This document shows positions 4,305 to 63,259 of a DNA stretch of 64,000 bases, piece by piece. The stretch covers positions 168,802-232,801 of IMG/VR virus record IMGVR_UViG_3300047476_002078. One strand, 5' to 3'. Within the stretch, counting starts at the first letter, position 1. Each line of letters begins with the position of its first letter. The notes under the pieces were generated by a model. That model was not told where the DNA came from and made no database searches. It saw nothing but the letters and a program-made list of their open reading frames with translations. This stretch comes from a virus. The position numbers and the translations under genes were made by a program.

Positions 4305-4727
4305 ATGATTGCTCATGAAACAAACGTGCTATTGAATAGCGTTATAAACACTGTACGTAATTTAGATAATAAAAAATCTCAGTTAGGAGATCAAAGCTCT
4401 CTTTTTATTAAAAACATTACGCAAAAATTAAAATCAAATGAGATTCCTCCTGTGGAATTAGTTTTTACTCACTATGTAGAAGAACTTGGATGCGACATTG
4501 ATTTTTGGGTCAAATGGGATGGAAAAATATTCTTAACATCTTCTGATGGTAACGATGACTATTCTCCTATACTTGGACAAAAAATTCAAAGCCGATTTAA
4601 TTTTGTTAAGATGATTCCAGTAATATTAAAAGATATGGAAAATCATTTTTCAAACGAGTTGAAAGAAATGGATTTTTTTATAGAAGGTGCTGAAAGCGAA
4701 GATGAAGAAGATATAAACAGTCTTTAA
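4305..4727 (+). CDS. hypothetical acidic protein, isolated gene
   Basis: 140 residues from the ATG preceded by GGAGA at the right distance; upstream in-frame starts add 23 residues without a ribosome site. The C-terminus is strongly acidic (GAESEDEEDINSL). A central beta-type segment (GCDIDFWVKWDGKIFLTSS) has no recognised family. It is the only plus-strand gene between two minus-strand blocks, and it has a near-consensus promoter upstream and a hairpin terminator at its end, so it is probably expressed alone. Early expression of a small acidic host-takeover protein is possible but is inference. Confidence 0.7.
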   Translation: MIAHETNVLLNSVINTVRNLDNKKSQLGDQSSLFIKNITQKLKSNEIPPVELVFTHYVEELGCDIDFWVKWDGKIFLTSSDGNDDYSPILGQKIQSRFNFVKMIPVILKDMENHFSNELKEMDFFIEGAESEDEEDINSL

Positions 4728-5428
4728 TTTAGAGAGGGGATAGAATCCCCTCTCCTTATTTCTTTAAGCCTATTTTTCGTCAAAGTGTGTTCCACATATC
4801 CCAAATGGCAAAGTAAACTATACCTTTCTTTTTTAACTTTTAGTTCTTCGACTCTATGAAGTTTAGTAAAATCAAGATTATTTACAGTAACCATTACGCC
4901 GTGATTTGGTAAAATTTTATCAATCTCTTCCACTGTTTTTTCATCTATTCCACCGTATTTATTTAACTTAGCTTTCCCTATTCCTAAATACCCTCCGTCT
5001 GTTTCATAAAAAACGTCTTTAGTTAAATATAAAATATTTGTCATAAAAGTTGAATCGTAACTGTCGGAGTGCCATACCATACCTGAATTTTTTGCATAAT
5101 TATTTATCATTGGACTACCTTGAGAAAAGGGTCCGAAACAATCAGTAAACCATTTAAAATATTTTGAATTAGATAAGCCTTCCCAAAAATCTTTAAAAAT
5201 TTTTGGAGCTTCTTCATTATAGGATGTCAATGTGTGTGAAGCCTCCCACTTTGAAATTAAAGGAGCATCATATCCAGCGGAAGAATAGTAACCATCTCCT
5301 GTAACGTAAATTTGACTTCGTACTTGTTCTAAAAAATAATCAGCTACTTCGAGATCAATTCTTGTTACGGTGTAACCGTCTTTAAAGAATTTATGAATAT
5401 CAAAATTATCTTTTATTTGTAGTTTCAG
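4724..5428 (-). CDS. 2-oxoglutarate/Fe(II) oxygenase (CTG start proposed)
   Basis: Predicted to hydroxylate a protein or small molecule using iron, oxygen and 2-oxoglutarate. With the start proposed here, the facial triad is His120-x-Asp122 and His191, with the 2-oxoglutarate-binding Arg202 (WHSDS, LHRVE, KERYSLL). The open frame extends upstream past the first TTG (5230) for 66 more codons that align with the neighbouring paralogue (DIHKFFKDGYTVTRIDLEVA here, DLNDFFNKGYAVSKINVDIA there), but no ATG, GTG or TTG occurs in that stretch. A CTG at 5428 lies six bases after GGAG and overlaps the upstream stop as CTGA, giving 234 residues, near the paralogue's 245. Last gene of the radical SAM operon. 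Confidence 0.8.
   Translation of the reverse strand: MKLQIKDNFDIHKFFKDGYTVTRIDLEVADYFLEQVRSQIYVTGDGYYSSAGYDAPLISKWEASHTLTSYNEEAPKIFKDFWEGLSNSKYFKWFTDCFGPFSQGSPMINNYAKNSGMVWHSDSYDSTFMTNILYLTKDVFYETDGGYLGIGKAKLNKYGGIDEKTVEEIDKILPNHGVMVTVNNLDFTKLHRVEELKVKKERYSLLCHLGYVEHTLTKNRLKEIRRGDSIPSLN
4732..4754. terminator. hairpin terminator between convergent genes
   Basis: Perfect 10-bp stem GAGAGGGGAT / ATCCCCTCTC with a 3-base loop, followed on the plus strand by CTTATTTCTTT. It ends the isolated plus-strand gene. It sits inside the last codons of the convergent oxygenase gene, whose stop overlaps by four bases. Confidence 0.7.
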
Positions 5429-6162
5429 ATCATGCTCCAGTTTTTAGCTTTCAATGAATAAAGAACATTTGCTGAATAACCAAACTGGCATATCAAAGAA
5501 AATCTTTTTTTATTTGTTTTTAACGGTGGTACACGATGAACAAAATTAGGGTTTAAATTATTAGCTGTGACCATTACACCATGATTAGGCAAAATTTTTC
5601 CAGTAGGTATAACTTTCTCTTTTTCAATTTCTCCCGTGTATTCACAAACCCCAAACTCAACGTAACCTCCATCGCTTTCTGTGAATGTTTCTTCTGTGAG
5701 ATATATCATGTTGATTAAAAATGAAGCATCTCTAAAATCATAATGCCAGCTTAGACCATCATTTTTACTATATTTCATCATTTGTTTTGATAGCTGTGAA
5801 AAATCTCCGAAGTGTTGAGTTAGAGGTTTGAAATAATTCTCTTTAGATAAATTACTCCAGAAATCATTAAAATAAGGTTTATCATCTTCTACGAAACCCA
5901 TGCCCATTTGAGGTGAACTCAAATTTTCCCCTTCTGGAACAGTAAAAGGTGTTACACACTCACAATAAAAAAGTCCTGTGTCTGTGTGATAAACAGGATG
6001 CTCGTCAGAACTTATAACTGAAGGATAATTGAATTTTTGATTACGTATTTTTTTAAGTAAATTGTCAGCTATATCTACATTAATTTTGGATACAGCGTAA
6101 CCTTTATTAAAGAAATCATTAAGATCAATAGAGTCATTGAGTATTATCTGATTCTTTGTCAT
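5425..6162 (-). CDS. 2-oxoglutarate/Fe(II) oxygenase
   Basis: 245 residues, ATG start with a short AGG site. The core double-stranded beta-helix motifs are present: His140-x-Asp142 (SWHYDF), distal His209 (FVHRV) and Arg220 (KKRFSL), with the Gly-Gly of ESDGGY between them. The fold is like prolyl-4-hydroxylase-type enzymes. It is a tandem paralogue of the downstream gene and of the degenerate copy at 39047-39703. It shares a transcript with four radical SAM genes, so it may hydroxylate the same substrate; that link is inferred from context only. Confidence 0.85.
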   Translation of the reverse strand: MTKNQIILNDSIDLNDFFNKGYAVSKINVDIADNLLKKIRNQKFNYPSVISSDEHPVYHTDTGLFYCECVTPFTVPEGENLSSPQMGMGFVEDDKPYFNDFWSNLSKENYFKPLTQHFGDFSQLSKQMMKYSKNDGLSWHYDFRDASFLINMIYLTEETFTESDGGYVEFGVCEYTGEIEKEKVIPTGKILPNHGVMVTANNLNPNFVHRVPPLKTNKKRFSLICQFGYSANVLYSLKAKNWSMI

Positions 6163-6532: not shown

Positions 6533-7009
6533 TTACAATATTGATAAAACTTCATTTAGTTCCTTACCTATAAACATTTCTTTTTTAAAGTAATCAACTG
6601 TTGACTTTACTTGCGATGGTAAAAAGTAAGAGTCATTAATTACGTTTACAAGTACAGGAAACACTCTTATTAAAACTTCATCATATAGAGATTTGCTATC
6701 TTCAGAGTAAGGAACAAAATAAGGGTCATTTCCAAATAGCAATTCCGAGTCTGATAAGTTTTCATAATAATCAAGACCAAAGTATTTTGATATAAGGGAT
6801 GCGTAAACAATAGCTACCATAAAAGATTTTGCAGGATATTGAAGAAAAGTGACTTCTTCTTTGAAGTGCTTTTCAATATCTTCTACTATTTCTTGGAATG
6901 TGTAGAAATCTTTGACTAGGTAAATTTCCTCTTTTGATATGTCATAAATTGAGTCTGTTATGGGCTGGGTTTGATGATAAACTTTCTGTCGTAATTTGTG
7001 TTCTTTCAT
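6533..7009 (-). CDS. hypothetical protein in the radical SAM operon
   Basis: 158 residues, helical, rich in Tyr, Phe and Glu, with no Cys cluster or membrane segment. The ATG sits just after GGAGTGGT, so the 68-base overlap with the upstream radical SAM gene looks genuine. A weak resemblance to the N-terminal part of the 39687-40565 protein, which also follows an oxygenase paralogue, was seen by eye and needs a profile search. It could be a recognition or partner protein of the modification system. Confidence 0.65.
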   Translation of the reverse strand: MKEHKLRQKVYHQTQPITDSIYDISKEEIYLVKDFYTFQEIVEDIEKHFKEEVTFLQYPAKSFMVAIVYASLISKYFGLDYYENLSDSELLFGNDPYFVPYSEDSKSLYDEVLIRVFPVLVNVINDSYFLPSQVKSTVDYFKKEMFIGKELNEVLSIL

Positions 7010-7904
7010 ACCACTCCAATAAAAATTTAAACCCGTTGCAAGAATTTTCTAAACTTTTAACATCTCTATAATGTTCTGTTAGGCATGTTCCAAAATAATC
7101 ACATTTACTGCATATTTTGTTCTGTTTAACTTTTATTTTTTCATTTTCTCTCCATGTAAAATATTCTTCTATATTTTCCATTTCAACAAAATGTTCTCTA
7201 TCATCACTATCAAAATCTAAAATGCCAAATTTTCCTGAAGGTGTGATGTAAACGTGATTGTCAGAAAAAGCGTTTCGTTCTTTTTTTATACTCTCAACTA
7301 TGTTGAACTCATTAACGAATACAGACTTTAATTGTACTTTGTTATTCAAAAACTTTTTAATAAATTCTTCAAAGTCTTTAAAAGTAACATTTAAGCTATT
7401 GTATTGATTTGTGCTATACGGCTTAATTTCTACAGACTTTACATTTGAGATACTGTTTAATGTTTGAATCATATAATCAACATCAATATTTATGAGGCAT
7501 GGAGAAGCCAACATCAATACAGCAATATGCTTGTTAAGAGAAAGCATATTGCTTAAAGTATTTTTAAACCCTGATCTACATTCAAAATCAAAGGATACTG
7601 AAACATCAACGTCTTCTCTCATTAACACATCTGTAATTTTGGTAAGATTAGTTATGATGTTTATTTTTCCGCCATAATACTTTTTAATTATTAAGAAAAG
7701 TTCATCCAAGTATTCTTTAGAAAGTAACTGTATTTCTCCTCCGTACAAGTCTATATGTTCTATTTTTTCATATTGTGAAATTTGTTTTAAACGCAAATCA
7801 ATATCTTTTAGATCAGTTGTTTTTGGGTCACTTAATTTATCACCTAGATAACAAAAGGGGCATCTAAGATTGCAAAGATATGTCGGATTAAGAGACACAT
7901 TCAT
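6942..7904 (-). CDS. radical SAM protein with C-terminal Cys cluster (rSAM 1)
   Basis: 320 residues. The [4Fe-4S]/SAM-binding motif C-x3-C-x2-C lies at Cys11, Cys15 and Cys18 (CNLRCPFC), followed by the DLYGGE motif that contacts SAM. The C-terminal part carries ICSKCDYFGTCL and a further Cys (ENSCNG), which looks like a shortened SPASM/Twitch-type auxiliary cluster domain, usual in enzymes that modify peptides. Substrate not shown; the Cys-His-Ser-Ser protein in the same operon is the natural candidate. Start overlaps the upstream gene as ATGA. Confidence 0.88.
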   Translation of the reverse strand: MNVSLNPTYLCNLRCPFCYLGDKLSDPKTTDLKDIDLRLKQISQYEKIEHIDLYGGEIQLLSKEYLDELFLIIKKYYGGKINIITNLTKITDVLMREDVDVSVSFDFECRSGFKNTLSNMLSLNKHIAVLMLASPCLINIDVDYMIQTLNSISNVKSVEIKPYSTNQYNSLNVTFKDFEEFIKKFLNNKVQLKSVFVNEFNIVESIKKERNAFSDNHVYITPSGKFGILDFDSDDREHFVEMENIEEYFTWRENEKIKVKQNKICSKCDYFGTCLTEHYRDVKSLENSCNGFKFLLEWYERTQITTESLSSNPAHNRLNL

Positions 7905-9004
7905 GACTGTCCAATATCTTTAAAATATTCTTTAAAGTGCTCTTTAACATCGTCTTTAGCCGATGATAACTGTGATTCTAAGTCTTGTTTTACAGCCACA
8001 AGTTTAAGAATATCATCTGCGTTACCTTTCATTATTTTACAATGTTCCTCTACCAAACCAAGCTTTTTGTAATCTTTAATAGTTTTGTGACAGCCATTGC
8101 AAATATCAAACATTGGACAAGTAAGACATTCATCTTTCATCCTTTGTAATTCATAATGTTGCTTCAAAGGGGTAAAGAAATTACCTTGTTTTACTTCTTG
8201 ATCGAAATCAATTCTATACTTTCCTTCATCTTCAAAATCATCATCTCCAAAAGCTCCGCAAGAGTGATAAGCCCCATTAGGCTGAAGACATCGAATATGA
8301 CTGTCACACTCTCTTGCGAGAGGGCAAGTCGTTCCCATTTTTTTAATTCTGACAGTCATTTGTTTTGTGTTGTATTCCCAAGGAGCCAAACCTTCCTTAT
8401 ATACATCAAGATATATTTTGTATATTTTTCCTAAAAGAAAAGGTTTTGATTGGTCGCCTGAAGCCATGGCATAGTTAAGCTTACACTCAACTCCCATTTT
8501 CTTAGCTAATCTCACATTATCTATTGCAGTATCTTCGTTTTCTTCTGTGATTACAGATATAAATCCGGGGCGGTATCCAACTTTTTCAAGAAATAAATCA
8601 GACACTTTCCAAAAAATATCCTCTGTGAAAACTTTGTTTTTTGTTATACGTCTAGTGTTTCCATAGTTAAAAGATGTGGCTACGCTTACCCTGTCTTGCC
8701 TTTTAAAAAGTTTTGTCCATTTATCAGGGTACTTATAAAAATCCCATAAATTTGTAGTGAAAGAAACTATAGCTGGATATTTGTTATCATCTAAATGTTT
8801 CACTAGCTCCCAATAATAATCAGGGTGGATTACAAGAGGGTCGCCTCCGTTCACAATAATTGTTCTGGTATCTGGAAATCTTTTTAAGAAATCCACAATA
8901 TATTGCATTGGCAGTATTTGTTTTTTATCTTCTGAAATGTTGGTAGAGCTACAGAAAGTACAGGCAAAATTACAAACTTCTGTAGGTTTAATAATTAAGT
9001 CCAC
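7901..9004 (-). CDS. radical SAM/SPASM protein (rSAM 2)
   Basis: 367 residues from a GTG that overlaps the previous gene by 10 bases; a later start would lose the cluster motif, so the GTG must be right. C-x3-C-x2-C is at Cys11, Cys15 and Cys18 (CNFACTFC), with VNGGDP as the SAM-contact motif. The C-terminal half has many cysteines (CPLARECDSHIRCLQPNG, YHSCGAF, CLTCPMFDICNGCHK, EEHCK), a full SPASM-type arrangement for auxiliary iron-sulfur clusters. Ends in a charged helical tail of about 40 residues. Expected to act on a peptide or protein, with partner enzymes in the operon. Confidence 0.9.
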   Translation of the reverse strand: MDLIIKPTEVCNFACTFCSSTNISEDKKQILPMQYIVDFLKRFPDTRTIIVNGGDPLVIHPDYYWELVKHLDDNKYPAIVSFTTNLWDFYKYPDKWTKLFKRQDRVSVATSFNYGNTRRITKNKVFTEDIFWKVSDLFLEKVGYRPGFISVITEENEDTAIDNVRLAKKMGVECKLNYAMASGDQSKPFLLGKIYKIYLDVYKEGLAPWEYNTKQMTVRIKKMGTTCPLARECDSHIRCLQPNGAYHSCGAFGDDDFEDEGKYRIDFDQEVKQGNFFTPLKQHYELQRMKDECLTCPMFDICNGCHKTIKDYKKLGLVEEHCKIMKGNADDILKLVAVKQDLESQLSSAKDDVKEHFKEYFKDIGQS

Positions 9005-10110
9005 TTTTTATCTATCTCCCTAAACATTATTTTATAAAGACATTCTGACAGTTGTTTTCTTTCTGCAAAATAAACATGATCTTCCATCACAAAACAAGAA
9101 AATCCACATCTTCCAAAAAACTCACAACTTAAACACTCTTTTTTTGTAACAAAAGATTCGATAATATTGGCATTACTTTCATAATTGATTTTATGTTCAA
9201 ATTCGCTAGGGTTGTATTGGAGTTGTCTGCAAGTTAAAATTCTACCGTTAGGAAGAATCGTAATTTTGTTCAAACTCATACAGGTCATCTGGTTTACATC
9301 ATTTTCAATCCACTGTTTTATTGGCTGAATTTCTGGAAATTCATTAATAACTTTAAGCAAGAAATCCAAAATGTCTTTGTCTGAAGGTACTAGCAATTGA
9401 GCGTTAGTTTCAGGGGTGTAATAATCGAAACTTATAGGAAAACCTTCATCATACAAGTATTTAAAGTAACTTGTATCAGAATTTAAAAACTTTTCGATAG
9501 TAGGTTTGGTCAAAACTAAATTAATAGTTCCTATATGCTTTTTAAATTTTATTATGTTTTTATGCCATAAGGTATTAACGTGATGAGCTACTGCTCGACC
9601 ATGAAAATCAAGAGAGGTTGTAATGCAAAATTCTATATTATTATTTTCTAATTTATTTAAAAACTCTTCAACTTTTTCTACTTCAGTAAAAAGACAATTT
9701 GTAACTAAAACAATATTGGCTTGTTTATTTAGTGTTTTAGCATGTGAATCAACTTTTTTTATCAATTCAAAATAGTCATCAAATTTGTTTCTTCCATCTT
9801 GAAAAATTTCTCCGCCCATTAGACAGATATTAAAACGAGTGCAAGAATTATCACTGATAAATTGATTGATAGGTTCAGCTTTTTCAATAATTTCTTCAAG
9901 ACCTGTGGTATCATCGTGATCTTGCCAGCAAAAAGCACAACGTAAATTGCAAGCTTGAAAAAGACTTACTTCTACTTCTGCTTCAGAAGGAACTTTAGTT
10001 CGTAATAAAGACTTTATGTAATTTTCATCAACAGGACTTTGAAGTTTTGATTCCTTAAACTCTTGATAAGTTTTAGGTCCTTCTGTCACTATTGGAATTT
10101 TTTTCTTCAT
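8995..10110 (-). CDS. radical SAM/SPASM protein (rSAM 3)
   Basis: 371 residues. Unlike the two downstream copies it has an N-terminal extension of about 50 residues before the C-x3-C-x2-C motif (Cys54, Cys58, Cys61: CNLRCAFC); LMGGEIF follows. The SPASM region shows MTCMSLNKITILPNGRILTC and ECLSCEFFGRCGFSC with a final Cys (SECLY). The extension could hold a peptide-recognition element, which is inference. The start overlaps the Cys-rich small gene by 38 bases, with GGGGAAAA upstream as a distant ribosome site. Confidence 0.9.
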   Translation of the reverse strand: MKKKIPIVTEGPKTYQEFKESKLQSPVDENYIKSLLRTKVPSEAEVEVSLFQACNLRCAFCWQDHDDTTGLEEIIEKAEPINQFISDNSCTRFNICLMGGEIFQDGRNKFDDYFELIKKVDSHAKTLNKQANIVLVTNCLFTEVEKVEEFLNKLENNNIEFCITTSLDFHGRAVAHHVNTLWHKNIIKFKKHIGTINLVLTKPTIEKFLNSDTSYFKYLYDEGFPISFDYYTPETNAQLLVPSDKDILDFLLKVINEFPEIQPIKQWIENDVNQMTCMSLNKITILPNGRILTCRQLQYNPSEFEHKINYESNANIIESFVTKKECLSCEFFGRCGFSCFVMEDHVYFAERKQLSECLYKIMFREIDKKWT

Positions 10111-10285
10111 CTAAATATTTTCCCCACTTACCAATGGGACATTCGCTATTTTTAAGTCTGGCTTTTACAACCATGAAACAGCCACACTTTCCGCAAACAT
10201 CCATCTTTAACGGTTGCTTTAATTCTGGACAAGCTCTACAAATACCTATTCGATATTCGTAATTTTCTTCATCAACAAAAATCAA
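10073..10285 (-). CDS. small Cys-rich protein (DUF6171-like)
   Basis: 70 residues. Cysteines are arranged as CRAC, then CGKCGC, then ECPIGKW, which matches small phage metal-binding proteins of the DUF6171 kind (recognised by eye). It probably binds zinc or an iron-sulfur cluster. The start is TTG, six bases after AAGG and overlapping the preceding stop as TTGA. It lies between the radical SAM genes and the substrate-like gene. A scaffold or electron-transfer partner role is possible but not shown. Confidence 0.75.
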   Translation of the reverse strand: MIFVDEENYEYRIGICRACPELKQPLKMDVCGKCGCFMVVKARLKNSECPIGKWGKYLDEEKNSNSDRRT

Positions 10286-11067
10286 ACAATACCTTCGGAT
10301 ACCACAGCTTCATCAATTTTTTGTTCAATTAACGAAAGCTCTTGGCTCACTTTAGCAATCATATCAGGAGTAATATCCCCATTTGCTAAAGCGTCTATAC
10401 CTAAACATAAAGGGTTTTTTGAATTTAAAATATAATGAGTGAGCATTAATCCTTTAAAAGCCCCTTCCTCAAACTGCATCTTGAACCATTTCAAAGGGTG
10501 TTTACTAGGCTTACTTACAAACGCCTCAATGAATCCTTCAATTTGGATTACATTCAGTACATTAACTGTGATATACATAGCATCATTTACTTCTTCAAAT
10601 TCATCCAATGATATTTGAGGGTCGAAGGCTCGGACATACAAAAGCAAAATAGAATCTAAAAAAGTTGCCCACTTCTCCACCACTTCAGGATATTTGGCAA
10701 TAAATTCAGGTATTTCTTCATTGGATAAAACACTCTTTTCGATGACACTAATATGATCTACCTCTTTATAAAAAAGCATTATGTGTGCAATTGTTTGTGA
10801 AAGAGGTATAGATGCGTTGAAAGCTCTTAGTTTCATAAAAGCTGCTATAAAATCGTGTTTTTCAACTGTCGATGTTTCTGATAAATCAAAATCTGGATTT
10901 AACTCTAGGTTTGCTAGATATGTTAAAAGCTGATCTCCTTTTATTGAACTATTTGCATAATCCACAGTGTATTTAATTTTTTCTCTATTCATGAAAACTT
11001 CTTTCATGAGATCAACACTTAAAGGAATTGTTACACGTCTTTCAATAAATTCTACATTTGTTTCCAT
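10282..11067 (-). CDS. unknown protein of the radical SAM operon
   Basis: 261 residues from the ATG that follows AGGAG at five bases; it begins two bases after the stop of the Cys-His-Ser-Ser gene, and the ribosome site lies inside that gene's last codons. A longer open frame upstream (27 residues of VHAT-type repeats) is only the repeat read in another frame. The protein is helical and acidic, has no Cys cluster, and matches no family I know. Immediately adjacent, coupled expression with the putative substrate suggests a chaperone-like or recognition partner. Confidence 0.75.
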   Translation of the reverse strand: METNVEFIERRVTIPLSVDLMKEVFMNREKIKYTVDYANSSIKGDQLLTYLANLELNPDFDLSETSTVEKHDFIAAFMKLRAFNASIPLSQTIAHIMLFYKEVDHISVIEKSVLSNEEIPEFIAKYPEVVEKWATFLDSILLLYVRAFDPQISLDEFEEVNDAMYITVNVLNVIQIEGFIEAFVSKPSKHPLKWFKMQFEEGAFKGLMLTHYILNSKNPLCLGIDALANGDITPDMIAKVSQELSLIEQKIDEAVVSEGIV

Positions 11068-11068
11068 T

Positions 11069-11626
11069 TTATCTCCTAGCTCTACTGCTATGGCATGAAC
11101 TGTGGCATGAACTGTGGCATGAGCTATGACATGAACAGTGACACCCATCTTGTGTTATACAAGCGACTCTGTAAGCCGCACCTTCTGAAAGGTCAGCGAT
11201 ATTCTTTAAAGTAGTAACAAAGTTATTCAAAGCTGTAGCTGATACTACCCCTTGAGGTCCGGGCGTTGTATCTATTTGAGAAGTTAAAGCGGAAACATAG
11301 TAAGCACTTGTTAAAGCAGCAACACGGATACCATTATATACTGAGTAGTTTCCACACGAAGGATTGTATCTTCCCGACTCTAGCTGTCTGATTCTAGTTG
11401 ATTCTTTGGCAAAATTTCTAATTTGCGTAATTACTTCATTAGCCGTTAAAACCGAACTCAGATTACTTTCGCCCATGGGAGTTAATTGTGTGTCCAAAGT
11501 ACCACAATTAGGTTCGATGGAAGAATCTGTCCACCAAACAACTCTACTATTTTTGGGTGTAACTATATCATTATTAACATCGTTGATTATACCTGCTTTG
11601 GTAATAATCGTTCCTTGAATAGCCAT
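11069..11626 (-). CDS. putative modified protein with C-terminal Cys-His-Ser-Ser repeats
   Basis: 185 residues. Residues 1-158 are an unfamiliar Ser/Thr/Asn/Ala-rich domain with two isolated Cys near residues 41 and 91. Residues 160-181 read DGCHCS and then CHSS four times, ending in RARR. A four-residue Cys repeat at the C-terminus is the hallmark of targets of the CXXX-repeat radical SAM maturases, and each unit also contains a His-x-Ser as in the His-Xaa-Ser system. The gene lies directly downstream of one radical SAM gene and upstream of three more, so it is the likely substrate. The N-terminal domain is far longer than a normal leader peptide; it may be a virion or carrier domain. Alternatively the tail simply binds metal. 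Confidence 0.8.
   Translation of the reverse strand: MAIQGTIITKAGIINDVNNDIVTPKNSRVVWWTDSSIEPNCGTLDTQLTPMGESNLSSVLTANEVITQIRNFAKESTRIRQLESGRYNPSCGNYSVYNGIRVAALTSAYYVSALTSQIDTTPGPQGVVSATALNNFVTTLKNIADLSEGAAYRVACITQDGCHCSCHSSCHSSCHSSCHSSRARR
11084..11143 (-). repeat. 12-base tandem repeat encoding Cys-His-Ser-Ser units
   Basis: About four tandem 12-base units, two of them identical at the DNA level (TGGCATGAACTG on the plus strand), the others differing at synonymous positions. The synonymous variation argues for selection on the protein repeat rather than recent duplication alone. Unit number could vary by slippage in whole codons. Confidence 0.85.
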
Positions 11627-11635
11627 TAAAAACTC

Positions 11636-12721
11636 CTACTCTTGCCCGATGAAACCGTTTAAAACAGTTCTCATAAGGGTTGCATCTCCATAAGGAAATT
11701 CTTTATTATATTTAAGCTTTTGCATTAAAGTTTTAGGAGCAGGGCAAACATCTCCATCCCAAGCTAGTTGGTGACAATCCCCATTACAAATATCGAAAAC
11801 ATCGCATCCATAACAGCCCGGATTTCTAACTGCTTCACAAGCAATTTCCTTCATTCTTCCTTTTGAATACATGATTTCCAGAATTGGATAGTCTATGTAT
11901 CCATAAGGTTTTTCGACCGCAGAATTTGGACACCCTCCAACAGTTCCGTCAGCATTGAGTGTGAATATTTTTTGCTCACATGTTCTGCACCGACATCCGC
12001 TGTGGGTACTGTGAACTAAAGGTGAGAGGATAGAATTGAAAAATAAATTTTGAATTTTTTCATGATATTTATTCTCTATCGTCTGTTCCCACATCTTTAG
12101 AAAATAGTCTTGTAAATTTTTGTTTCCTGCGGCTAGATCATTATTACTTCTAGCGTTACCATTTGGAGTCATTCTTTCAAAATTAAGATAAGTGACTCCT
12201 AAATCAATCATTTTTTCTATGATTTGTTTTGGCTCTAATTCAAGAGTTTTAGAAGTAAGTGAAACCATAACTGTAACAGGGTATCCAAGCTTAACAAGAG
12301 TTCGGACATTATTCTCCCACAGTTCTTCAGCCTTTCTATTCGGAAATCTGATTTTATAATCCCATGAAGTTCCAAAGCTGTTTCTTTTTAACACCTCATC
12401 GAAAAAAGCAATTTTAGCATCATCCAGTCTGTAGGTTAGGTTGGTTTGAATACCCCACCAAACCTCATCCCAAAGAGGGCTTACCTCTCTGTAAACTTTT
12501 AGCATATCTTCAATAGGAGCAAGCATAGGCTCTCCTCCGTGAAAGGATATGTGTCCACCTTTTTTAAAATTAGGAACGACTTCTTTTAATCTCTTGAAAA
12601 AACTAATAGTTTTATCTGGATTAAAAAATACTTTTTTGCCTTGAGAGCCGCTGGTGAAGCAATGCTCACAGTTTAACTGACATGTTTCTGTTGTTTTTAA
12701 ATATACCATCAACTCATTCAT
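11636..12721 (-). CDS. radical SAM/SPASM protein, anSME-like (rSAM 4)
   Basis: 361 residues. Cluster motif at Cys14, Cys18 and Cys21 (CQLNCEHC), SAM motif SFHGGEP, and a Cys-rich SPASM region (SGCRCRTCEQ, GGCPNS, GCYGCDVFDICNGDCHQ, DVCPAP). This layout is close to anaerobic sulfatase-maturase-like peptide-modifying enzymes. A GAGAGG ribosome site precedes the ATG. It is the first gene of the modification operon and ends 10 bases before the start of the Cys-His-Ser-Ser protein, which makes it the prime candidate for the dedicated maturase. Confidence 0.9.
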   Translation of the reverse strand: MNELMVYLKTTETCQLNCEHCFTSGSQGKKVFFNPDKTISFFKRLKEVVPNFKKGGHISFHGGEPMLAPIEDMLKVYREVSPLWDEVWWGIQTNLTYRLDDAKIAFFDEVLKRNSFGTSWDYKIRFPNRKAEELWENNVRTLVKLGYPVTVMVSLTSKTLELEPKQIIEKMIDLGVTYLNFERMTPNGNARSNNDLAAGNKNLQDYFLKMWEQTIENKYHEKIQNLFFNSILSPLVHSTHSGCRCRTCEQKIFTLNADGTVGGCPNSAVEKPYGYIDYPILEIMYSKGRMKEIACEAVRNPGCYGCDVFDICNGDCHQLAWDGDVCPAPKTLMQKLKYNKEFPYGDATLMRTVLNGFIGQE

Positions 12722-22813: not shown

Positions 22814-23467
22814 ATGTCAAACGATAAAAAATATAAAGAAATAGATTTAGATAATATCGAAAATGATGATGATTTAAAAAGAAAGGCTGAAGCTCTGATC
22901 GAGCAAGAAGTCTCTAAAAACTCCTCTTATACTTCAAGCTACAGTCAACCTATTATACCTACAACAATACACGGCTCAGTACCTTCCCCTTCACAAAAAA
23001 TTGATGCTGATAAATACAAAAGCGAAAAAACTAACTTTATCGTGGAGGATAATCTTTTAAAGATGATACGTGAAGGTTCCAACAGCTTTGCTTTGCTAGA
23101 TAAAGTGATTGAAGAGATAGCCGAAGAATCAGCCAGTTTAAAATTTGATCGTAATTTCAGTGAAAGCCTTTTCGCTTTAGCTGGAGAGAACACTAAAGTT
23201 TCAAAAGCTAGAGCACAAATTCTGAAAACAATTGGTGATCTTCTTGTTACTAAGAGGGAGCTTGCAAAAAACGATGTTATTAATTTGAAGGGCAAGAGGA
23301 TGCAAGCAGTCTTCAAATATTTTATGACAGTCATCAAAACATCCATAGATCAAACTGAATCAATACTTCCAGAGCAAAAAGAACTTTTTTGGTCTAACCT
23401 GCAAAAGAATTTAGTTGATTTTGAAGAAAACGCTGAAAAAGTTATGTCAAAAGTAGAGGAAGAATGA
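22814..23467 (+). CDS. putative terminase small subunit or packaging accessory
   Basis: 217 residues, AGGAG ribosome site, and ATGA overlap with terminase large subunit. The N-terminal 80 residues are acidic and disordered (DLDNIENDDDLKRK, then Ser/Pro/Tyr). The rest is helical (about residues 85-215) with basic patches (KVSKARAQILKTIGDLLVTK). Position and helical layout suit a small terminase, but no HTH motif is convincing, so the call is from context. Confidence 0.6.
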   Translation: MSNDKKYKEIDLDNIENDDDLKRKAEALIEQEVSKNSSYTSSYSQPIIPTTIHGSVPSPSQKIDADKYKSEKTNFIVEDNLLKMIREGSNSFALLDKVIEEIAEESASLKFDRNFSESLFALAGENTKVSKARAQILKTIGDLLVTKRELAKNDVINLKGKRMQAVFKYFMTVIKTSIDQTESILPEQKELFWSNLQKNLVDFEENAEKVMSKVEEE

Positions 23468-26181
23468 GCATTGCAAATTTAGCAGGTTCTTTCATCCAGC
23501 AAAATGATGATGGAAGAGTTGCAGACATTATTACTTTTTGTGAGGCTCCTTGGGGTTTAAATATGAACCTCAAGACAGGTAACACAACTTTAAGACCTGT
23601 TCAAAAATTAGTAATGAAGTGTTACTACAATCTTGAACTTGATAATAAAGAAAAATCAATTATCGTTCGAGACTTCTTGAACGAAGAAGAAAAATACAGA
23701 TTCACAGAACAAGAATATCTTCACTTCCTTTATAACGAAGGAAGAACAAACATAAAAGAAGTTGGAAGTAAGTTAAGAAACGAATTAGTTTTAGTGGCTG
23801 GTCGAAGGGGAGGAAAATGCCTCAAAGAAGGAACGCTTATTTTAACTCCCAAAGGTCCTGTAGAAATTGAAAAAATTAAAGCAGGCGACACAGTTTATGG
23901 ATACAATGCAGATGGTTCAGTAAGCCCTACTAAAGTTTTGAATGTAGCCGATCAAGGTATTCAAGAAGTTGTTGATTTAACTTCAGGTACAGAAGTTATT
24001 CAAACTTGTACATTTAATCACAAATGGTTGACTATAGATGAAATAAACGACAAAAAAACTGAAAAAACACCTTCAACTTTTTGTAAAAGAGAGGGGAATC
24101 AGTATGCAAATATTGTAAGAAAAATAATTAAAATACCTTGTGGAGATGTTGAAGAGTCTCATGCTTATGGTATCGGAAAATATCCGTGGGGAAAAATTGT
24201 AGATTTAGATGTCGTTAAAAAATGGAATCGTGAGTCTTTGTTAAATTTTTTAGCAGGTTTTCTTGATACTGATGGAAGCGTAAGCGTTTCAGAAAATACA
24301 ATTTCAATAGAATTTTTTTGTCAATCAAAGTCGATTCTTGAAGCAGTAGATTACGCTTTTTTAACTTTGTTCCAATATAAACTTAATTGGAGCATTGATA
24401 AACGAGATGTAAATGAAACTGTTTATCGACTAAGAATGAAAAACAATTTTTTTGCTAAAGCCGCTTTGCGTGAACTTAATGATTATTTGGTTAATCCTGC
24501 AAGAAAATGGAAACCTGAATATGAATCATTTTTGGAAAATAACTCTAATCCTTATTATGTCGGAGTAAAATTAGGTAAAAAATATGAAGCTAGAACTTAT
24601 GATATTGAAGTAGATAATGAAACAAGTCTTTATGTTTTAGCAAACCAAGGATTAGTAACACACAATAGTAAATTAGGTGCTATTGTTTCTGCTTACGAGG
24701 CATACAGCTTAATTAAAAAACAACATCCTCAAAGAGCTTACGGTCTTACAGACAACGCTGAGATTTATCTTACAACCGTTGCAACATCCACAGAGCAGGC
24801 GGAACTCCTCTTTAATGATATTGCTGCTTATATAGACAGTTCTCAATTTTTTAACCGCTACAAGAATGACCCTACTCTTCAGTTCATGAAGTTGAGATCA
24901 CCTTATGATATTGAAAATAGCGGTCAAGATGGTCGAACTTCAATCATTATTAAAGCCGCTCCGTGTTCCGGTCGAGGTCTTCGTGGTATGGCAAACATTG
25001 TTATTATCATGGATGAGCAAGCCCACTTTATTGATTCTTCTACCAACAAATCTGACGCTGCTATTTATGAAGCTGTAACACCTTCAACTCTTTCATTTGG
25101 TAAAGATGCTAGAATTTTAAATATTAGTTCTCCTCTTAACAAACAGGGAAAACTTTGGGAATTATACAACGCATCATTTCAATCTGAAAAGATTTTAATG
25201 TTTCAAATACCGACGTGGGAACTTTACCCTCAAGTTGACTCCTCTGAATTAAGAGAAAGATACCGCCGAAATCCAGATGTATATTGGTGTGAAATTGGAG
25301 CAAAATTTTCTGATACCGTAAAATCTTGGATGCCTGTTGAACAGTTGGTAAAATGTATAGAGCCTACCCTCAAGCCAAAGCTTAGAGGTCTTCCAAAAAC
25401 GGAACACTTTATGGGGATTGATATAGGTCTTAAAAAAGACCAAACTGCCATAACTGTTCTTCATGTTGAAAACAAGAGAGAGCCTGTTTTCAATGTAAAC
25501 GGTCAATTAATTGACGAAATCATAGTTCCAAAATACGAGCTTGATTACCAAGAGGTTTTACAAGCAGGCGTTGGTAAACACGTAGGTAGAGAGTTTTTAG
25601 ATTTCGATAATATCGCTGACAGGATTGAAAGTGTCTGTAAAGATTTTATGGTCGTGAAAGGTTTATTTGACCAATATAACGGCGTTCCTTTGATGCAATC
25701 TCTCCAGAAAAAAGGATTGAACCAGTTTTCTATGGTGTATTTTGACCGTAGATTCAATTCAGAACTTTACAATAATTTTATGCTTCAAGTCATTGATGGG
25801 AAATTAGTTTTATTCGACGACCCTGAATCAAGTCAGCCCTTGGCTGAAGGTAAGCATGGACCTTTTATTTCTGAAATAATTGACCTTCAGAGTGAATTTA
25901 TATCAAAATATATTACACAGGTGTTTGCTCCCGAAATTGAAGGTAAGCACGATGACCGCTCTGACTCATTTGTTCGAGCTTTGTGGTGTGCGACGGAATG
26001 GCTTACAAAAAATAAAGATAATTCGGGGCAGTTTTTACCGTCTTTGCAATTTACGGAAAATGGTAATTCTTCAGGTATGCAAGCAAGGAAGCATAGACCT
26101 TACATGAATCAAAGAGTTGGAACGTCTAACAATAGAGCTAGTCCATACTCCGTGTTTTTTAATAAGAGAGGAAGGCGTTGA
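23464..26181 (+). CDS. terL: terminase large subunit with intein
   Basis: 905 residues as encoded, about 622 after removal of a 283-residue intein (residues 119-401). The ATPase Walker A is split: GRRGGK precedes the intein and S-K-L-G-A follows, giving GRRGGKS on splicing. Walker B is NIVIIMDEQAHF. The nuclease domain shows GIDIGLKKDQTAI, LFDQYNG and HDDRSDSFVRALW, consistent with the metal-binding acidic residues. The enzyme cuts concatemeric DNA and powers packaging into the prohead. Activity requires splicing, because the phosphate-binding loop is interrupted. A GAGGA ribosome site precedes ATG, and the portal lies 360 bases downstream. Confidence 0.95.
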   Translation: MSIANLAGSFIQQNDDGRVADIITFCEAPWGLNMNLKTGNTTLRPVQKLVMKCYYNLELDNKEKSIIVRDFLNEEEKYRFTEQEYLHFLYNEGRTNIKEVGSKLRNELVLVAGRRGGKCLKEGTLILTPKGPVEIEKIKAGDTVYGYNADGSVSPTKVLNVADQGIQEVVDLTSGTEVIQTCTFNHKWLTIDEINDKKTEKTPSTFCKREGNQYANIVRKIIKIPCGDVEESHAYGIGKYPWGKIVDLDVVKKWNRESLLNFLAGFLDTDGSVSVSENTISIEFFCQSKSILEAVDYAFLTLFQYKLNWSIDKRDVNETVYRLRMKNNFFAKAALRELNDYLVNPARKWKPEYESFLENNSNPYYVGVKLGKKYEARTYDIEVDNETSLYVLANQGLVTHNSKLGAIVSAYEAYSLIKKQHPQRAYGLTDNAEIYLTTVATSTEQAELLFNDIAAYIDSSQFFNRYKNDPTLQFMKLRSPYDIENSGQDGRTSIIIKAAPCSGRGLRGMANIVIIMDEQAHFIDSSTNKSDAAIYEAVTPSTLSFGKDARILNISSPLNKQGKLWELYNASFQSEKILMFQIPTWELYPQVDSSELRERYRRNPDVYWCEIGAKFSDTVKSWMPVEQLVKCIEPTLKPKLRGLPKTEHFMGIDIGLKKDQTAITVLHVENKREPVFNVNGQLIDEIIVPKYELDYQEVLQAGVGKHVGREFLDFDNIADRIESVCKDFMVVKGLFDQYNGVPLMQSLQKKGLNQFSMVYFDRRFNSELYNNFMLQVIDGKLVLFDDPESSQPLAEGKHGPFISEIIDLQSEFISKYITQVFAPEIEGKHDDRSDSFVRALWCATEWLTKNKDNSGQFLPSLQFTENGNSSGMQARKHRPYMNQRVGTSNNRASPYSVFFNKRGRR
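23818..24666 (+). mobile_element. intein in the terminase Walker A motif, single DOD motif
   Basis: 283 residues. Splicing motifs: Cys1 with CLKEGTLILTPKGPVEIEKI (block A), TCTFNHKWLT (block B with the T-x-x-H), and the C-terminal YDIEVDNETSLYVLANQGL followed by VTHN, with Ser as the +1 residue. One LAGLIDADG-type motif, LAGFLDTDGS, lies near the middle, but the second motif expected for an active DOD homing endonuclease was not found, so homing is probably degenerate. The ends are exact by motif and restore GRRGGKS. Confidence 0.92.
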
Positions 26182-58085: not shown

Positions 58086-58811
58086 TCAAAATGCCATAAA
58101 AATAAACGCACCGTTTCTTTTATTCTTTTCATCCATGCGACTAAACAAACAGTCCTGTTCATTAAAGTACATAATTGGAGATTTATTTGGTGTGGCATAA
58201 AGAACATTGAAAGATAATAAGAACTGTTTACCGTAACATTTAAAGATCGGAGATTGTAACGGTATTTTCAAAAAACCTTTTTCATAATTTTCAGATAAAG
58301 ATACTTTCCCAACACGTAAAAGTTTTTGGCTTAAAGTATCATAAAGATTATAAGACAGTATCGCATTGTGTCTTAGAGCGTCTTCAGTTTTTATCTTTAT
58401 TTTTATCTCTTCTAAAGTGGGTTTAAAGTAATCGAAAACTTGACCGAATTTTTTATCTTTAGTAAGAAGGTATTCTAATTCTCCATGAGGCTGGTAACAT
58501 CCTAAAATTGATGGGATGTCGGGGGTTTTATTCCAAAATTCTTCAATCAAACGGTATGCTTGTGTGAGAGGGTCTGGAAATTCGTTTATAAATTTGTATT
58601 TATTGGTATCTTTGTTCAAAAGTATCTTATCACAAAAATATTTCTCAGCTTGGTCAAAACCGTCAGGAAGTAGTAAGCAAAAGTCGTATAAAGAGCTATC
58701 TAAAAAATCTTTATAGAAATACTGTTTGGTGATAACACGACTTTTTAAGTTCAAGTAAATTGGATGGTTTTCATATTCACGTTTAAAATAAACGAAAGCT
58801 AATTTAATCAT
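58086..58811 (-). CDS. hypothetical protein (241 aa)
   Basis: 241 residues, aromatic and basic, mixed alpha/beta, ATGA overlap with upstream transferase. No motif was recognised. It sits between DNA polymerase and the sugar cassette, belonging to the latter by coupling. Confidence 0.65.
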   Translation of the reverse strand: MIKLAFVYFKREYENHPIYLNLKSRVITKQYFYKDFLDSSLYDFCLLLPDGFDQAEKYFCDKILLNKDTNKYKFINEFPDPLTQAYRLIEEFWNKTPDIPSILGCYQPHGELEYLLTKDKKFGQVFDYFKPTLEEIKIKIKTEDALRHNAILSYNLYDTLSQKLLRVGKVSLSENYEKGFLKIPLQSPIFKCYGKQFLLSFNVLYATPNKSPIMYFNEQDCLFSRMDEKNKRNGAFIFMAF

Positions 58812-59580
58812 TTAAAACCTCTATCCAATCTACTGCTCTATTGTAGTTCAAATGATTTTTTAAAACGTAATCTCTAGTTATTTGAGAAATATATTCAAAA
58901 GATTCTGGAGATACCTTATAAAACTCTAAGAAGTCTTCTAATTCATTGTGTTTAGAAGGTCTAAAAAATTCTTTATAACTTAAAGGTATGTCGAACTGAC
59001 TGTATATTTTTTCAAATTCGTTTTCTATTTCTGGAGTGCTTAATGAAATAACAGGTATTTTTCTAACCCAAGCTTCAAAAAGTGCTTTTAAGTTTGTCGC
59101 AAGTACAAAATCCGCTTTATATTCATAAGTAAATTCAAAATTTAAGTTTAATTCTTTGGCATCTTCTAACGAATCGGTACATACAAAAATTTTTTTACCT
59201 TTTAAAAATTTTTTACAATCTTGGAGAAGTTTAACATCTTCTTTAAAACCTACCCACAAGCAAGTATTTAACTCTAAATTTTTTGATTTTCTAGGAACTC
59301 TGTAATCAACTCCATAATTAAAATTACGTTGATTTTTAAAAGTTTTAATATACTTTTCTGATAGACCGTCTATGAAAATTTTGTTTGTTTTTTGCCTAAG
59401 TATCAAATCAATATTTTTATCAATTAGATCAGAGGATATTACTAGATGGGAATAATTACCAAAAGGTATAAAAGACTCTGCTGAAACACCTTCAAAGGTA
59501 TTTAAAATTTGGACAAGGCTACTGAGACGTTGGTAGCTTTTAGACATTTTTTCAGATTCAAACCAAATACCTATTTTCAT
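58804..59580 (-). CDS. glycosyltransferase-like protein
   Basis: 258 residues from ATG overlapping the previous stop (ATGA). Layout resembles a GT-B C-terminal half: LEDAKELNLNFEFTYEYKAD, then LKALFEAWVRKIPVISLSTP and LSYKEFFRP. It is probably a partner of the adjacent glycosyltransferase. Confidence in the family is moderate. Confidence 0.6.
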   Translation of the reverse strand: MKIGIWFESEKMSKSYQRLSSLVQILNTFEGVSAESFIPFGNYSHLVISSDLIDKNIDLILRQKTNKIFIDGLSEKYIKTFKNQRNFNYGVDYRVPRKSKNLELNTCLWVGFKEDVKLLQDCKKFLKGKKIFVCTDSLEDAKELNLNFEFTYEYKADFVLATNLKALFEAWVRKIPVISLSTPEIENEFEKIYSQFDIPLSYKEFFRPSKHNELEDFLEFYKVSPESFEYISQITRDYVLKNHLNYNRAVDWIEVLND

Positions 59581-60593
59581 TCTAATAATTTTGACCACTT
59601 TTCATAAAACTTGTTCGTTGAAAATTTTTTCAACATGGTTTTTCTAGCGTTATAACCCATTTCGATAGCACGTTCAGGATTTGCAAGAAGATATATTGCA
59701 TAGTTTCTGAGTTCATATACATTGTTGCTGTAAAAACCATTATAACCGTTTTTAATTACCTTAGATTCACCAAAATAATTTGTGGTAACAGGCACACTTC
59801 CTAAAAGCATCGACTCATATAAGTTATGATGCCAAGGTTCTCTGACATGAGTATTTAAGTAACAACTGTATTGACCTATGAAATCCAAATAATCATAAAA
59901 ATTTATGATAGATTTCTCATTTGAATTTTCTTCAATTGAAGGGGGAGTTATTTCTTTTGCTATCCCTATTGGGTCTTTTCCTATAACTTCCACGCCTAAA
60001 CCTAAGCAAACTTTGTCGAATATTTTATATCCAGAGTATTGAGGATTCGTTGCCAAGAAAGGAGAAACGCTTACAAATTTACTCTTAGTTTTTGGAACAT
60101 AAGGATAATGTTGATAAGATAAGGTGGGTTCTATTATCAAAGAATTTTTGAAATTCCATTTACTTTGGGCTTCAAAGTTTGGAAATATAACCAAATCATC
60201 TTGAATAAAATCTTCTAACTCTTTTTTTGCTTCTTGGTCTATTTTTAAATTATCTTCAAAATAAAAATCTGGCTCAAATCTTCCTTCAAGAGCAGGAACG
60301 CCGTGGCATACAAAAACTTTTTTAATAGGGATTTTTGCTAATTTTCTAAAAACTTCTCCAAAATCACTTCTAACATTTTTTCCGGGATTTAAAACCATTT
60401 CGTTAAAATGAAGAACAAAAGCTTTATAGTTTTTAAGATCAATGTCTTCTATTTTTACAACTTTACAATTTTCGGAAAAAGGTCGAGCAGAATGGTTCCA
60501 AGGAAAAACATTAGGAAGATCAAGGTAATGGAATTGCCCTATTTTGTTTAACTCATATTGATAAATCACGTTCCATCGGTAAGTTAAATACAT
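59577..60593 (-). CDS. glycosyltransferase, GT4-like
   Basis: 338 residues. Donor-side motifs: VSVSPFLATNPQYSGYKIFD, VEVIGKDPIG, REPWHHNLYESMLLGSVPVT (the E-x7-E-like element) and VIKNGYNGFYSNNVYELRNY, typical of GT4 enzymes. GGGAAA precedes the ATG. With RmlABD encoded just upstream it may use a dTDP-sugar. Confidence 0.82.
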   Translation of the reverse strand: MYLTYRWNVIYQYELNKIGQFHYLDLPNVFPWNHSARPFSENCKVVKIEDIDLKNYKAFVLHFNEMVLNPGKNVRSDFGEVFRKLAKIPIKKVFVCHGVPALEGRFEPDFYFEDNLKIDQEAKKELEDFIQDDLVIFPNFEAQSKWNFKNSLIIEPTLSYQHYPYVPKTKSKFVSVSPFLATNPQYSGYKIFDKVCLGLGVEVIGKDPIGIAKEITPPSIEENSNEKSIINFYDYLDFIGQYSCYLNTHVREPWHHNLYESMLLGSVPVTTNYFGESKVIKNGYNGFYSNNVYELRNYAIYLLANPERAIEMGYNARKTMLKKFSTNKFYEKWSKLLE

Positions 60594-61420
60594 TTTCCCA
60601 AGTAGCTTGCTAGATGTTCATCCCATGAATACATCGGAGCTTGCTCTTTCTCCATTTTTGTTACATCAAGAACTCCGAACTTAGGTCTTTTCGCAGGTCT
60701 TGGAAACTCTTCTGAGTTACAAGGAATAACTTCTACTTTTTTGTTTTTAAGAATCTCTTTAGCAAAATCATACCAAGAACAGTAATCTGAAGCCCCTAAA
60801 TGAAAGCACCCTTTAGCATTGTTTGTTACTAAATAATGAATCGCCTTTGAAAGTAAAAACGTGCTTGTAGGTCTTCCAAACTGATCGTTTACTACTTTTA
60901 TTACTTTATTTTTTTCTGCAATTTTTAACATAGTATCAACAAAATTAGGTCCGTTTATTCCAAAGAGCCACTGAACTCTTAAAAGTAAATAATCTAGCCC
61001 TTGCTCGTTTTCTAAAGCAAGTTCACCCAAAAATTTTGAATGACCATAATGATTTATTGGCGATCTCTCGTCATTTTCCTTGTAGAAAGAAATAGAGTTG
61101 CCGTCAAACACGTAGTCTGTACTAAAATGAACGAACTTAGCTTTTATTAAATTACTATACTTTGCTAAGTAATGAACCGCAGTTGAATTTACTTTGTAAC
61201 AAGTAGGGTCTATTTCACAGTTATCTACTTTAGTGAAGGCAGCACAATTCACTACAATGTTTGGTCTAATTTGTAGTAAAGCTGTTTCAACTTCTTTTTT
61301 ATTTGTAATGTCTAGCTGACTTTTATCAAAAGCATATACGTTAGCATCTCCAAATAAAGGGATTAAATCCCTTGCTAACATTCCGTTTGAACCTGTAAAA
61401 AGAATTCTTGTCTTGTTCAT
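60584..61420 (-). CDS. rmlD: dTDP-4-dehydrorhamnose reductase
   Basis: 278 residues from the ATG overlapping the rmlB stop (ATGA). Short-chain dehydrogenase fold: ILFTGSNGMLARDL (NAD-binding), VVNCAAFTKVDNCE, STDYVFDG, YGHSKFLGE (Tyr-x3-Lys) and QFGRPTST. Makes dTDP-6-deoxy-L-hexose from the RmlB/RmlC product. No RmlC epimerase is present in the window, so the pathway may be completed elsewhere or make a different sugar. Confidence 0.9.
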   Translation of the reverse strand: MNKTRILFTGSNGMLARDLIPLFGDANVYAFDKSQLDITNKKEVETALLQIRPNIVVNCAAFTKVDNCEIDPTCYKVNSTAVHYLAKYSNLIKAKFVHFSTDYVFDGNSISFYKENDERSPINHYGHSKFLGELALENEQGLDYLLLRVQWLFGINGPNFVDTMLKIAEKNKVIKVVNDQFGRPTSTFLLSKAIHYLVTNNAKGCFHLGASDYCSWYDFAKEILKNKKVEVIPCNSEEFPRPAKRPKFGVLDVTKMEKEQAPMYSWDEHLASYLGKCI

Positions 61421-62379
61421 TTCCACACAGCCTTATAATTTTCTTCTAACCAAATCCAATTTTCTTTGTACCATTTAACGGTTTTTTCAAGACCTGTTCG
61501 GATGTCAACTTGTGGTTCCCATCCAAGTTTTTTAATTTTCGAGCAGTCCACACTGTATCTAAAGTCATGCCCTTTTCGGTCTTCTACAAAGTTTATCGAA
61601 TACGATTTATTTAAAATACCGCCCAAAATGCTGATAATGGATAGATTTGATTTTTCATTTTCAGAACCTACATTGTAGGTTTCCCCAATAATGCCTTTTT
61701 CGGCTACTACTCTAACTGCTCTTGCAGCGTCTTCTACAAACAACCACTCTCTAATATTTTGCCCTGTACCGTAGATAGGCAAGTCTTTTTCTGTTTCTAT
61801 TAAATACATCATTCGTGGTAATAATTTTTCTGGTAATTGTCGAGGACCGTAGCAATTAGATGGGCATATATTAACTACAGGTAGATCAAATGTTTCTTTA
61901 AATGCGTTAGCGAAGAGAAGCTGAGAAGCTTTTGAAGCTGAGTAGATATTCCTCGGATTAATTGGGGTATCTTCAGTAAAACTTGAATCTTCTCTTTTAA
62001 GATGACCGTAAACTTCATCGGTTCCAAAATTAACAATTTTCGGCACTTTATATTGAAGGCATACTTGAAATAGATTAGCAGAGCCTAGAATATTAGTCAT
62101 AATAAAGTCTTCGTAACCTTTAATTGATTTATCAACTGAAGATTCTGCGGCAGCGTGAATTACTAAATCAAAACACCCATGCTCAACGAAAACATCTTTT
62201 ATATCTTCTATATTTTTTAAATTTCCTTGAAAGAAAGTACAATCTACTTCATTCAAATGTTGTTTAAAACCGCTATACTCTAGGCTATCAAAAACTACTG
62301 TTTTGTATCCAGCATTTACAAACTCTCGAACTACTTGAGAGCCTATAAATCCACACCCTCCTGTTATAAGAACCTTCAT
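61417..62379 (-). CDS. rmlB: dTDP-glucose 4,6-dehydratase
   Basis: 320 residues. Rossmann GGCGFIGSQV, the catalytic YSASK motif, DEVYGHL (threonine/aspartate motif NFGTDEVYG), GPRQLPEKLLP and NIREWLFVEDAARA are the standard order. The enzyme converts dTDP-glucose to dTDP-4-keto-6-deoxyglucose. Coupled with RmlD and adjacent to RmlA. Confidence 0.93.
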   Translation of the reverse strand: MKVLITGGCGFIGSQVVREFVNAGYKTVVFDSLEYSGFKQHLNEVDCTFFQGNLKNIEDIKDVFVEHGCFDLVIHAAAESSVDKSIKGYEDFIMTNILGSANLFQVCLQYKVPKIVNFGTDEVYGHLKREDSSFTEDTPINPRNIYSASKASQLLFANAFKETFDLPVVNICPSNCYGPRQLPEKLLPRMMYLIETEKDLPIYGTGQNIREWLFVEDAARAVRVVAEKGIIGETYNVGSENEKSNLSIISILGGILNKSYSINFVEDRKGHDFRYSVDCSKIKKLGWEPQVDIRTGLEKTVKWYKENWIWLEENYKAVWK

Positions 62380-63243: not shown

Positions 63244-63259
63244 AAAAATCCTCCGTAAA

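Follow-up and report, generated by a model that had tools for sequence, protein, structure and literature searches.

The window, by which we mean the whole 64-kb stretch analysed here, belongs to a viral record of 355,874 bases (356 kb). On its minus strand lies an operon in the gene order rSAM1, tail protein, partner protein, DUF6171 protein, rSAM2, rSAM3 and rSAM4. The features of the locus are as follows.

11069-11626, minus strand: putative substrate protein of 185 aa, consisting of an N-domain and a CHxS tail (ORF; 73-75 aligned homologues; AlphaFold model)
11153-11626, minus strand: predicted folded N-terminal domain, residues 1-158 (AlphaFold; viral structural relatives)
11072-11143, minus strand: repeat tail CHCS-CHSS-CHSS-CHSS-CHSS-RARR, residues 162-185 (sequence; conserved in 117 contigs among the matches listed)
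11636-12721, minus strand: rSAM1, radical-SAM/SPASM enzyme of 361 aa, proposed tail maturase (phrog_1802, 5e-62)
10282-11067, minus strand: conserved partner protein (phrog_20767, 1e-37)
10073-10285, minus strand: small Cys-rich protein, DUF6171 (PF19668, 1.7e-7, above cut-off)
8995-10110, minus strand: rSAM2, 371 aa (phrog_1802, 1.5e-38)
7901-9004, minus strand: rSAM3, 367 aa (PF04055 above cut-off; phrog_1802, 7e-50)
6942-7904, minus strand: rSAM4, 320 aa (PF04055 above cut-off; phrog_1802, 1.4e-40)
6533-7009, minus strand: small conserved protein, next after rSAM4 (phrog_20737, 3e-26)
5425-6162, minus strand: 2OG-Fe(II) oxygenase-like protein, possible accessory enzyme (PF13640, 6e-5, below cut-off)
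4724-5230, minus strand: 2OG-Fe(II) oxygenase, possible accessory enzyme (PF13661, 5.8e-6, just above cut-off)

The tail gene, its operon and its N-terminal domain

The tail gene starts with ATG and encodes 185 residues, the last 27 of which (159-185) read QDGCHCSCHSSCHSSCHSSCHSSRARR, i.e., QDG, then CHCS-CHSS-CHSS-CHSS-CHSS and finally RARR. An earlier note on this DNA had described a Ser/Thr/Asn/Ala-rich domain of about 158 residues followed by GCHCS, four CHSS units and RARR. The composition is confirmed, since these four residues make up 38.6% of positions 1-158 compared with 24% in other nearby long ORFs; the tail is indeed found at the very C-terminus, but its count is better given as five CHxS units (CHCS and four CHSS), compared with three in nearly all relatives. 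Different synonymous codons are used across the five units, indicating that the repeat is maintained at the protein level and did not arise by chance. In the whole 355,874-base record, the repeat pattern occurs at a single site, the tail gene.

rSAM1 lies directly upstream of the tail gene, with a gap of 9 nt. The same note had mentioned one maturase before the tail gene, which is correct for rSAM1 but understated: a radical-SAM profile search of the whole record revealed four genes, all of them around the tail gene. It had also seen an AGGAG-coupled gene downstream, and this holds, as the partner gene starts at 11067, one base past the stop of the tail gene, and its AGGAG is made by the two terminal Arg codons of the latter. 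The terminal RR might be viewed as no more than a side effect of a Shine-Dalgarno sequence; this was ruled out, because relatives use different Arg codons at the end of the tail (AGA/CGN), and the RxRR end is thus conserved as protein.

The partner protein is present at 96 of the 117 tail loci among the matches listed. Its model has a pLDDT of 88, and a fold search against the PDB gave no match with Z of at least 5. A short protein similar to that of 6533-7009 likewise follows rSAM4 in the jumbo phage Phosso. Just past the radical-SAM operon lie the two 2OG-Fe(II) oxygenase-like genes (4724-5230 and 5425-6162), and the cluster of phage FLC6 has two as well; given these genes in both genomes, oxygenation may be part of the modification pathway.

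Structure prediction for the window protein likewise agrees with the domain described earlier. The AlphaFold model is compact (pLDDT 81, pTM 0.72), with predicted helices at residues 10-28, 62-76 and 130-149, a hairpin at 79-105 and pLDDT values mostly between 80 and 95; from approximately residue 159 on, the tail is predicted to be disordered. The 73 homologues that can be aligned over their full length have invariant columns only in the tail, and the N-domain is one fast-diverging family. Used as a lone query (tblastn and locus searches), the window protein gave no match; the family could be reached only by way of the tail pattern and rSAM1. When the N-domain was compared with PDB folds, no convincing match emerged; neither this nor the result for the partner by itself amounts to a new fold. 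Among viral proteins, the structural matches included a 296-residue protein of phage Atu_ph07 (E 1.3e-4) as well as further phage proteins of suitable length, and jumbo-phage proteins beyond the reach of BLAST appear to share the predicted fold.

Spread of the tail and its linkage to rSAM1

A DNA pattern of three CH units followed by RxRR was found in at least 120 stretches of viral sequence. Among the matches listed, the tail was in frame and closed the gene at 117 of the 121 loci examined. In the same listed set, the tail gene followed rSAM1 on the same strand within 60 nt at 71 of 85 loci, a count covering single-gene loci with upstream sequence. Twenty-seven contigs whose fetched flank had no rSAM1 match were searched whole; among these listed matches, 24 had a phrog_1802 match elsewhere, and the other three had a radical-SAM-like gene with CxxxCxxC near the tail gene. 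Of the 375 units of the pattern-scan set, 325 have Ser and 34 have Asn at position 4, and Ala occupied this position in the third unit in 8 of 125 cases (both among the matches listed). When the pattern was applied to 257 Gb of bacterial genomes, 88 stretches matched. A script called 18 of these in-frame tails, several of which belong to the phage types described above and lie in MAG contigs; the remaining stretches look like mostly chance, out-of-context matches.

Tail proteins were also seen on genome contigs (L128, L130, L138, L157, L191 and L204), some of them long (219 and 382 kb), that had been binned as an archaeon, Bacteriovoracaceae, Bdellovibrionaceae and other bacteria. Possible explanations are phage contigs, phages that infect predatory bacteria, and prophages. 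Furthermore, tail proteins of ~126 residues occur as tandem pairs at L008, L032, L041, L061, L075, L095 and other loci. At the loci inspected, this short and mostly tandem class is followed by different radical-SAM-like genes (phrog_31457-like) and a phrog_20767-type partner, and it probably represents a second branch of the system.

An important question is whether the constancy of the tail could be an artifact of the search, as its invariance in the pattern-scan sets is given by construction. Because the pattern fixes the residues sought, the linkage was tested again from rSAM1 and from the N-domain. The rSAM1-based search, in which the tail was ignored, revealed a CH-repeat protein downstream at 72 of 80 loci; the remaining eight consisted of six contig edges, one contig truncated before the gene (L220) and one locus interrupted by Hint domains (L265). 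At this last locus (7051-8289), the four CH units lead directly into Hint/intein domains (PF05203, 2e-15), presumably an intein within the tail or an autoprocessing end on it. The N-domain search was performed with the tail removed and a query representing the closer subset of the family, and all 79 complete genes ended in the tail. The earlier note had held that homologues with an unrelated metal-binding end, in genomes lacking radical-SAM neighbours, would refute substrate status; such homologues were sought and none were found.

The variants of the tail, which come closest to such homologues, point in the same direction. One clade ends in CHxx-CHxx-CHxx-I/L, without RxRR, and two sequences end in CHSxCHSSHSSRNRR, in which the third Cys is lost and HSS is kept; both types still lie beside rSAM1. 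In the rSAM1 tree, each tail-end variant forms a single clade (support 100/100 and 100/99), with the enzyme of the window placed among the RxRR types. The N-domain, the tail and the radical-SAM genes are linked near-obligately.

rSAM1 and the named maturase families

The CxxxCxxC motif of rSAM1 (C14/C18/C21) is invariant in 30 members, as are the cysteines of its SPASM set CX2CX5CX3C...C (C245, C248, C264, C303, C306, C312, C316 and C326), and the SPASM model TIGR04085 matches 22 of the 30. With both the CxxxCxxC motif and the SPASM cysteines, rSAM1 belongs to the radical-SAM/SPASM superfamily. The best solved relatives of its profile in the PDB are anSME (7e-9) and the CteB-type entry 5wgg.

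Is rSAM1 a member of a named maturase family? The anSME, PapB, DynA, CbpB and HxsB models gave family-wide best E-values of 3e-11 to 3e-17, and the anSME and PapB models each matched all 30 members. The window enzyme, however, lies far under every curated cut-off checked, including the equivalogs of anSME (52.6 bits vs 349) and PapB (37.7 vs 340) and the CXXX-repeat/FibroRumin maturase TIGR04115 (19.4 vs 350); the corresponding CXXX-repeat/FibroRumin substrate models reached 13.7 vs 50 and 15.9 vs 45 bits. The antiviral enzyme viperin was considered as well and ruled out (25.8 bits vs 180). rSAM1 is best called a putative maturase of an undescribed group, outside the named families.

The closest analogue is the His-Xaa-Ser system (HxsA/B/C, with HxsB and HxsC as paired maturases), in which a larger protein with C-terminal His-x-Ser repeats likewise adjoins several radical-SAM enzymes. 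The several C-terminal H-x-S triads characteristic of Hxs are present, with five units in the window protein and mostly three elsewhere, and the HxsB and HxsC models detect rSAM1 (2e-7; family best 3e-11) and rSAM3 (2e-6), respectively. Nevertheless, membership failed: the equivalog cut-offs were missed by rSAM1 (HxsB, 30.2 vs 370 bits) and rSAM3 (HxsC, 27 vs 267.9), and the HxsA model had no match to the window protein (E up to 1) or to the 73 homologues (E up to 0.01). The phage system also differs in its C-H-x-S repeat and its fibre neighbourhood.

A further likeness connects rSAM1 with the cyclophane maturases of triceptides and their kin (DynA, DarE, YhhB and FxsB), whose aromatic-x-Ser/Asn three-residue unit is compatible with H-x-S/N; the DynA and DarE models match rSAM1 at 7e-13 and 2e-13. 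However, the scores are approximately one tenth of the cut-offs, and the substrates of the DynA/DarE type are short peptides; to our knowledge, no phage virion substrates of cyclophane-forming maturases are known. Ranthipeptide and sactipeptide maturases (PapB and CteB) have in common with rSAM1 the SPASM architecture and a Cys-rich substrate, but the PapB cut-off is missed, the Cys of the third unit can be absent from the phage tail, and the thioether formed in those systems is only putative here. As in RiPP systems generally, the precursor-like gene lies beside that of the maturase. From classical RiPPs, the phage protein differs in its large conserved domain and its fibre neighbourhood, and no exporter or peptidase match was obtained when the operon proteins were scanned against family models.

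Fibre context and the proposed role of the protein

tblastn with rSAM1 retrieved seven jumbo-phage records. Four were inspected first, namely, Sinorhizobium phage Phosso, Agrobacterium phage Atu_ph07, Burkholderia phage SURPRISE13 and Pseudomonas phage DT01. In each of them, rSAM1 is immediately followed by a gene for a protein of 178-306 residues that ends in CHxSCHxSCHx[S/A]R[S/G]RR and that tblastn with the window protein had missed; a phrog_20767-type partner follows immediately or one to two genes on. DT01 and FLC6 (FLC6/RSF1 group) have the same gene cluster as the window. In environmental phages, a tail-fibre gene is typically located upstream of the operon; of the upstream neighbours that were tested, the majority matched PHROGs for tail fibres, virion structure or fibre ends (phrog_22593). 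The domain-plus-tail architecture and its frequent place after tail-fibre genes are shown. The window operon itself adjoins a DnaJ gene and not a fibre gene, which counts against a fibre-associated reading.

Radical-SAM gene clusters have been called "highly unusual" in published phage genomes. As far as the accessible portions of the reports go, SAR11 myophages carry unexplained radical-SAM cassettes inside the host-recognition cluster (PMC7029224), Aeromonas phage 332-Vera has eight unexplained radical-SAM genes in its structural cluster (PMC12390700), and one jumbo-phage report assigns such genes to DNA repair or host metabolism; in these portions, the DT01, 332-Vera and SAR11 phage reports name no substrate for the enzymes. 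In the open-access papers searched, no earlier description of the tail/enzyme system was found. The report on Atu_ph07 lists CDS 170-215 among its MS-based virion gene clusters (PMC6102473). The homologue in this phage is gp170 by its locus tag (FDI40_gp170, 296 aa), and the numbering agrees for gp181 (baseplate wedge) and gp198 (portal). All three clusters in that text span exactly 46 genes, so CDS 170 may be just the edge of a counting window, and its position was dropped as proof that gp170 had been detected.

Taken with the near-obligate linkage, these data raise a key question: what happens to the tail, and where does the protein go? The tail is very probably the substrate of rSAM1. The protein probably stays whole and enters the particle, and we favor the view that it is a virion protein, probably fibre-associated, whose CHxS tail is modified by phage-encoded radical-SAM enzymes. 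The earlier note had suggested that this could be a protein with a structural or carrier function and a modified tail, as opposed to a secreted peptide with a short leader, and the suggestion gains support because the domain is folded and family-wide, the tail is attached wherever the gene is complete and the radical-SAM genes are adjacent; the modification and the virion location are what we infer. In the proposed mechanism, rSAM1, aided by rSAM2-4 and the phrog_20767 partner, would install crosslinks on the CHxS units of the uncut protein; finishing or extending this modification would fall to the additional radical-SAM enzymes, the partner and, perhaps, the 2OG-Fe(II) oxygenases. The N-domain would anchor the protein, probably to the tail-fibre/baseplate assembly, and the tail would form a chemically hardened, rigid or metal-binding tip shown at adsorption. 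As a tentative first guess, by analogy with cyclophane-forming systems, the bond might lie within the H-x-S triad; alternatively, it could be a Cys thioether. The Ala at position 4 of some units fits poorly with a Ser-specific bond. The broadest form of the proposal, on which we are evenly divided, is that a widespread class of tailed phages, from giant phages to contigs similar to marine T4-like phages, build a fibre-tip protein with a radical-SAM-crosslinked CHxS tail, in which the protein and not a cut peptide is the product. Against the virion-protein reading count the three or more radical-SAM enzymes, exceeding the need of one short tail (some may act on other substrates), and the fact that phages with very different hosts share the same tail, an odd feature in a tip that binds receptors.

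Could the tail instead be modified and then cut off as a free RiPP-like peptide (a toxin, signal or superinfection blocker), with the N-domain as an outsized leader? The precursor-like place beside the maturase, the repetitive Cys/His core at the C-terminus behind a disordered linker, and the conserved basic end, which could serve as a processing signal, are all compatible with this. However, an N-domain that is the size of a functional domain and always kept, the position of the operon behind tail-fibre genes and the lack of any hit to peptidase or exporter families in the scanned operon proteins make such a peptide unlikely. Tail spikes and fibres with tips held by metal are known, and Cys-His pairs are good ligands; the tail could accordingly be an unmodified end that binds Zn, Fe or Cu, perhaps between subunits at a tip, while the radical-SAM enzymes act elsewhere. 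We consider this quite unlikely, as the tail and rSAM1 were found together in almost all cases from each of three independent starting points, the type of tail end tracks the rSAM1 clade, and the third Cys is lost in some sequences that keep HSS. That anSME is the top solved-structure match of the rSAM1 profile (7e-9), with its model matching all 30 members, raises a further option, namely, that rSAM1 oxidises Cys (or Ser) in the tail to formylglycine in the manner of an anaerobic sulfatase maturase, and that the resulting aldehyde would attach the protein to the host surface or to other virion parts. The score of 52.6 bits is far below the cut-off of 349, the PapB, DynA and CbpB models score equally well, and the tail is without a sulfatase motif of the C/S-x-P/A-x-R type; this chemistry is thus very unlikely.

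With the modified virion protein as the preferred reading, the puzzling radical-SAM clusters of jumbo and marine phages gain a concrete, testable substrate. If it is true, phages perform on a particle protein complex radical chemistry that is usual for peptide natural products, a large number of uncharacterised enzymes that come with their own substrate become accessible, and an unexplained part of the host-recognition regions of environmental phages becomes a defined module.

Two other features of the window were read from translations. The gene at 23464-26181 (plus strand) encodes a large terminase with an apparent intein at the Walker A site (GRRGGK-CLKEGTLIL...VTHN-SKLGAIV). At 58804-63991 (minus strand), a run of genes resembles dTDP-sugar synthesis and glycosyltransferase genes, which suggests possible surface-sugar changes by the phage.
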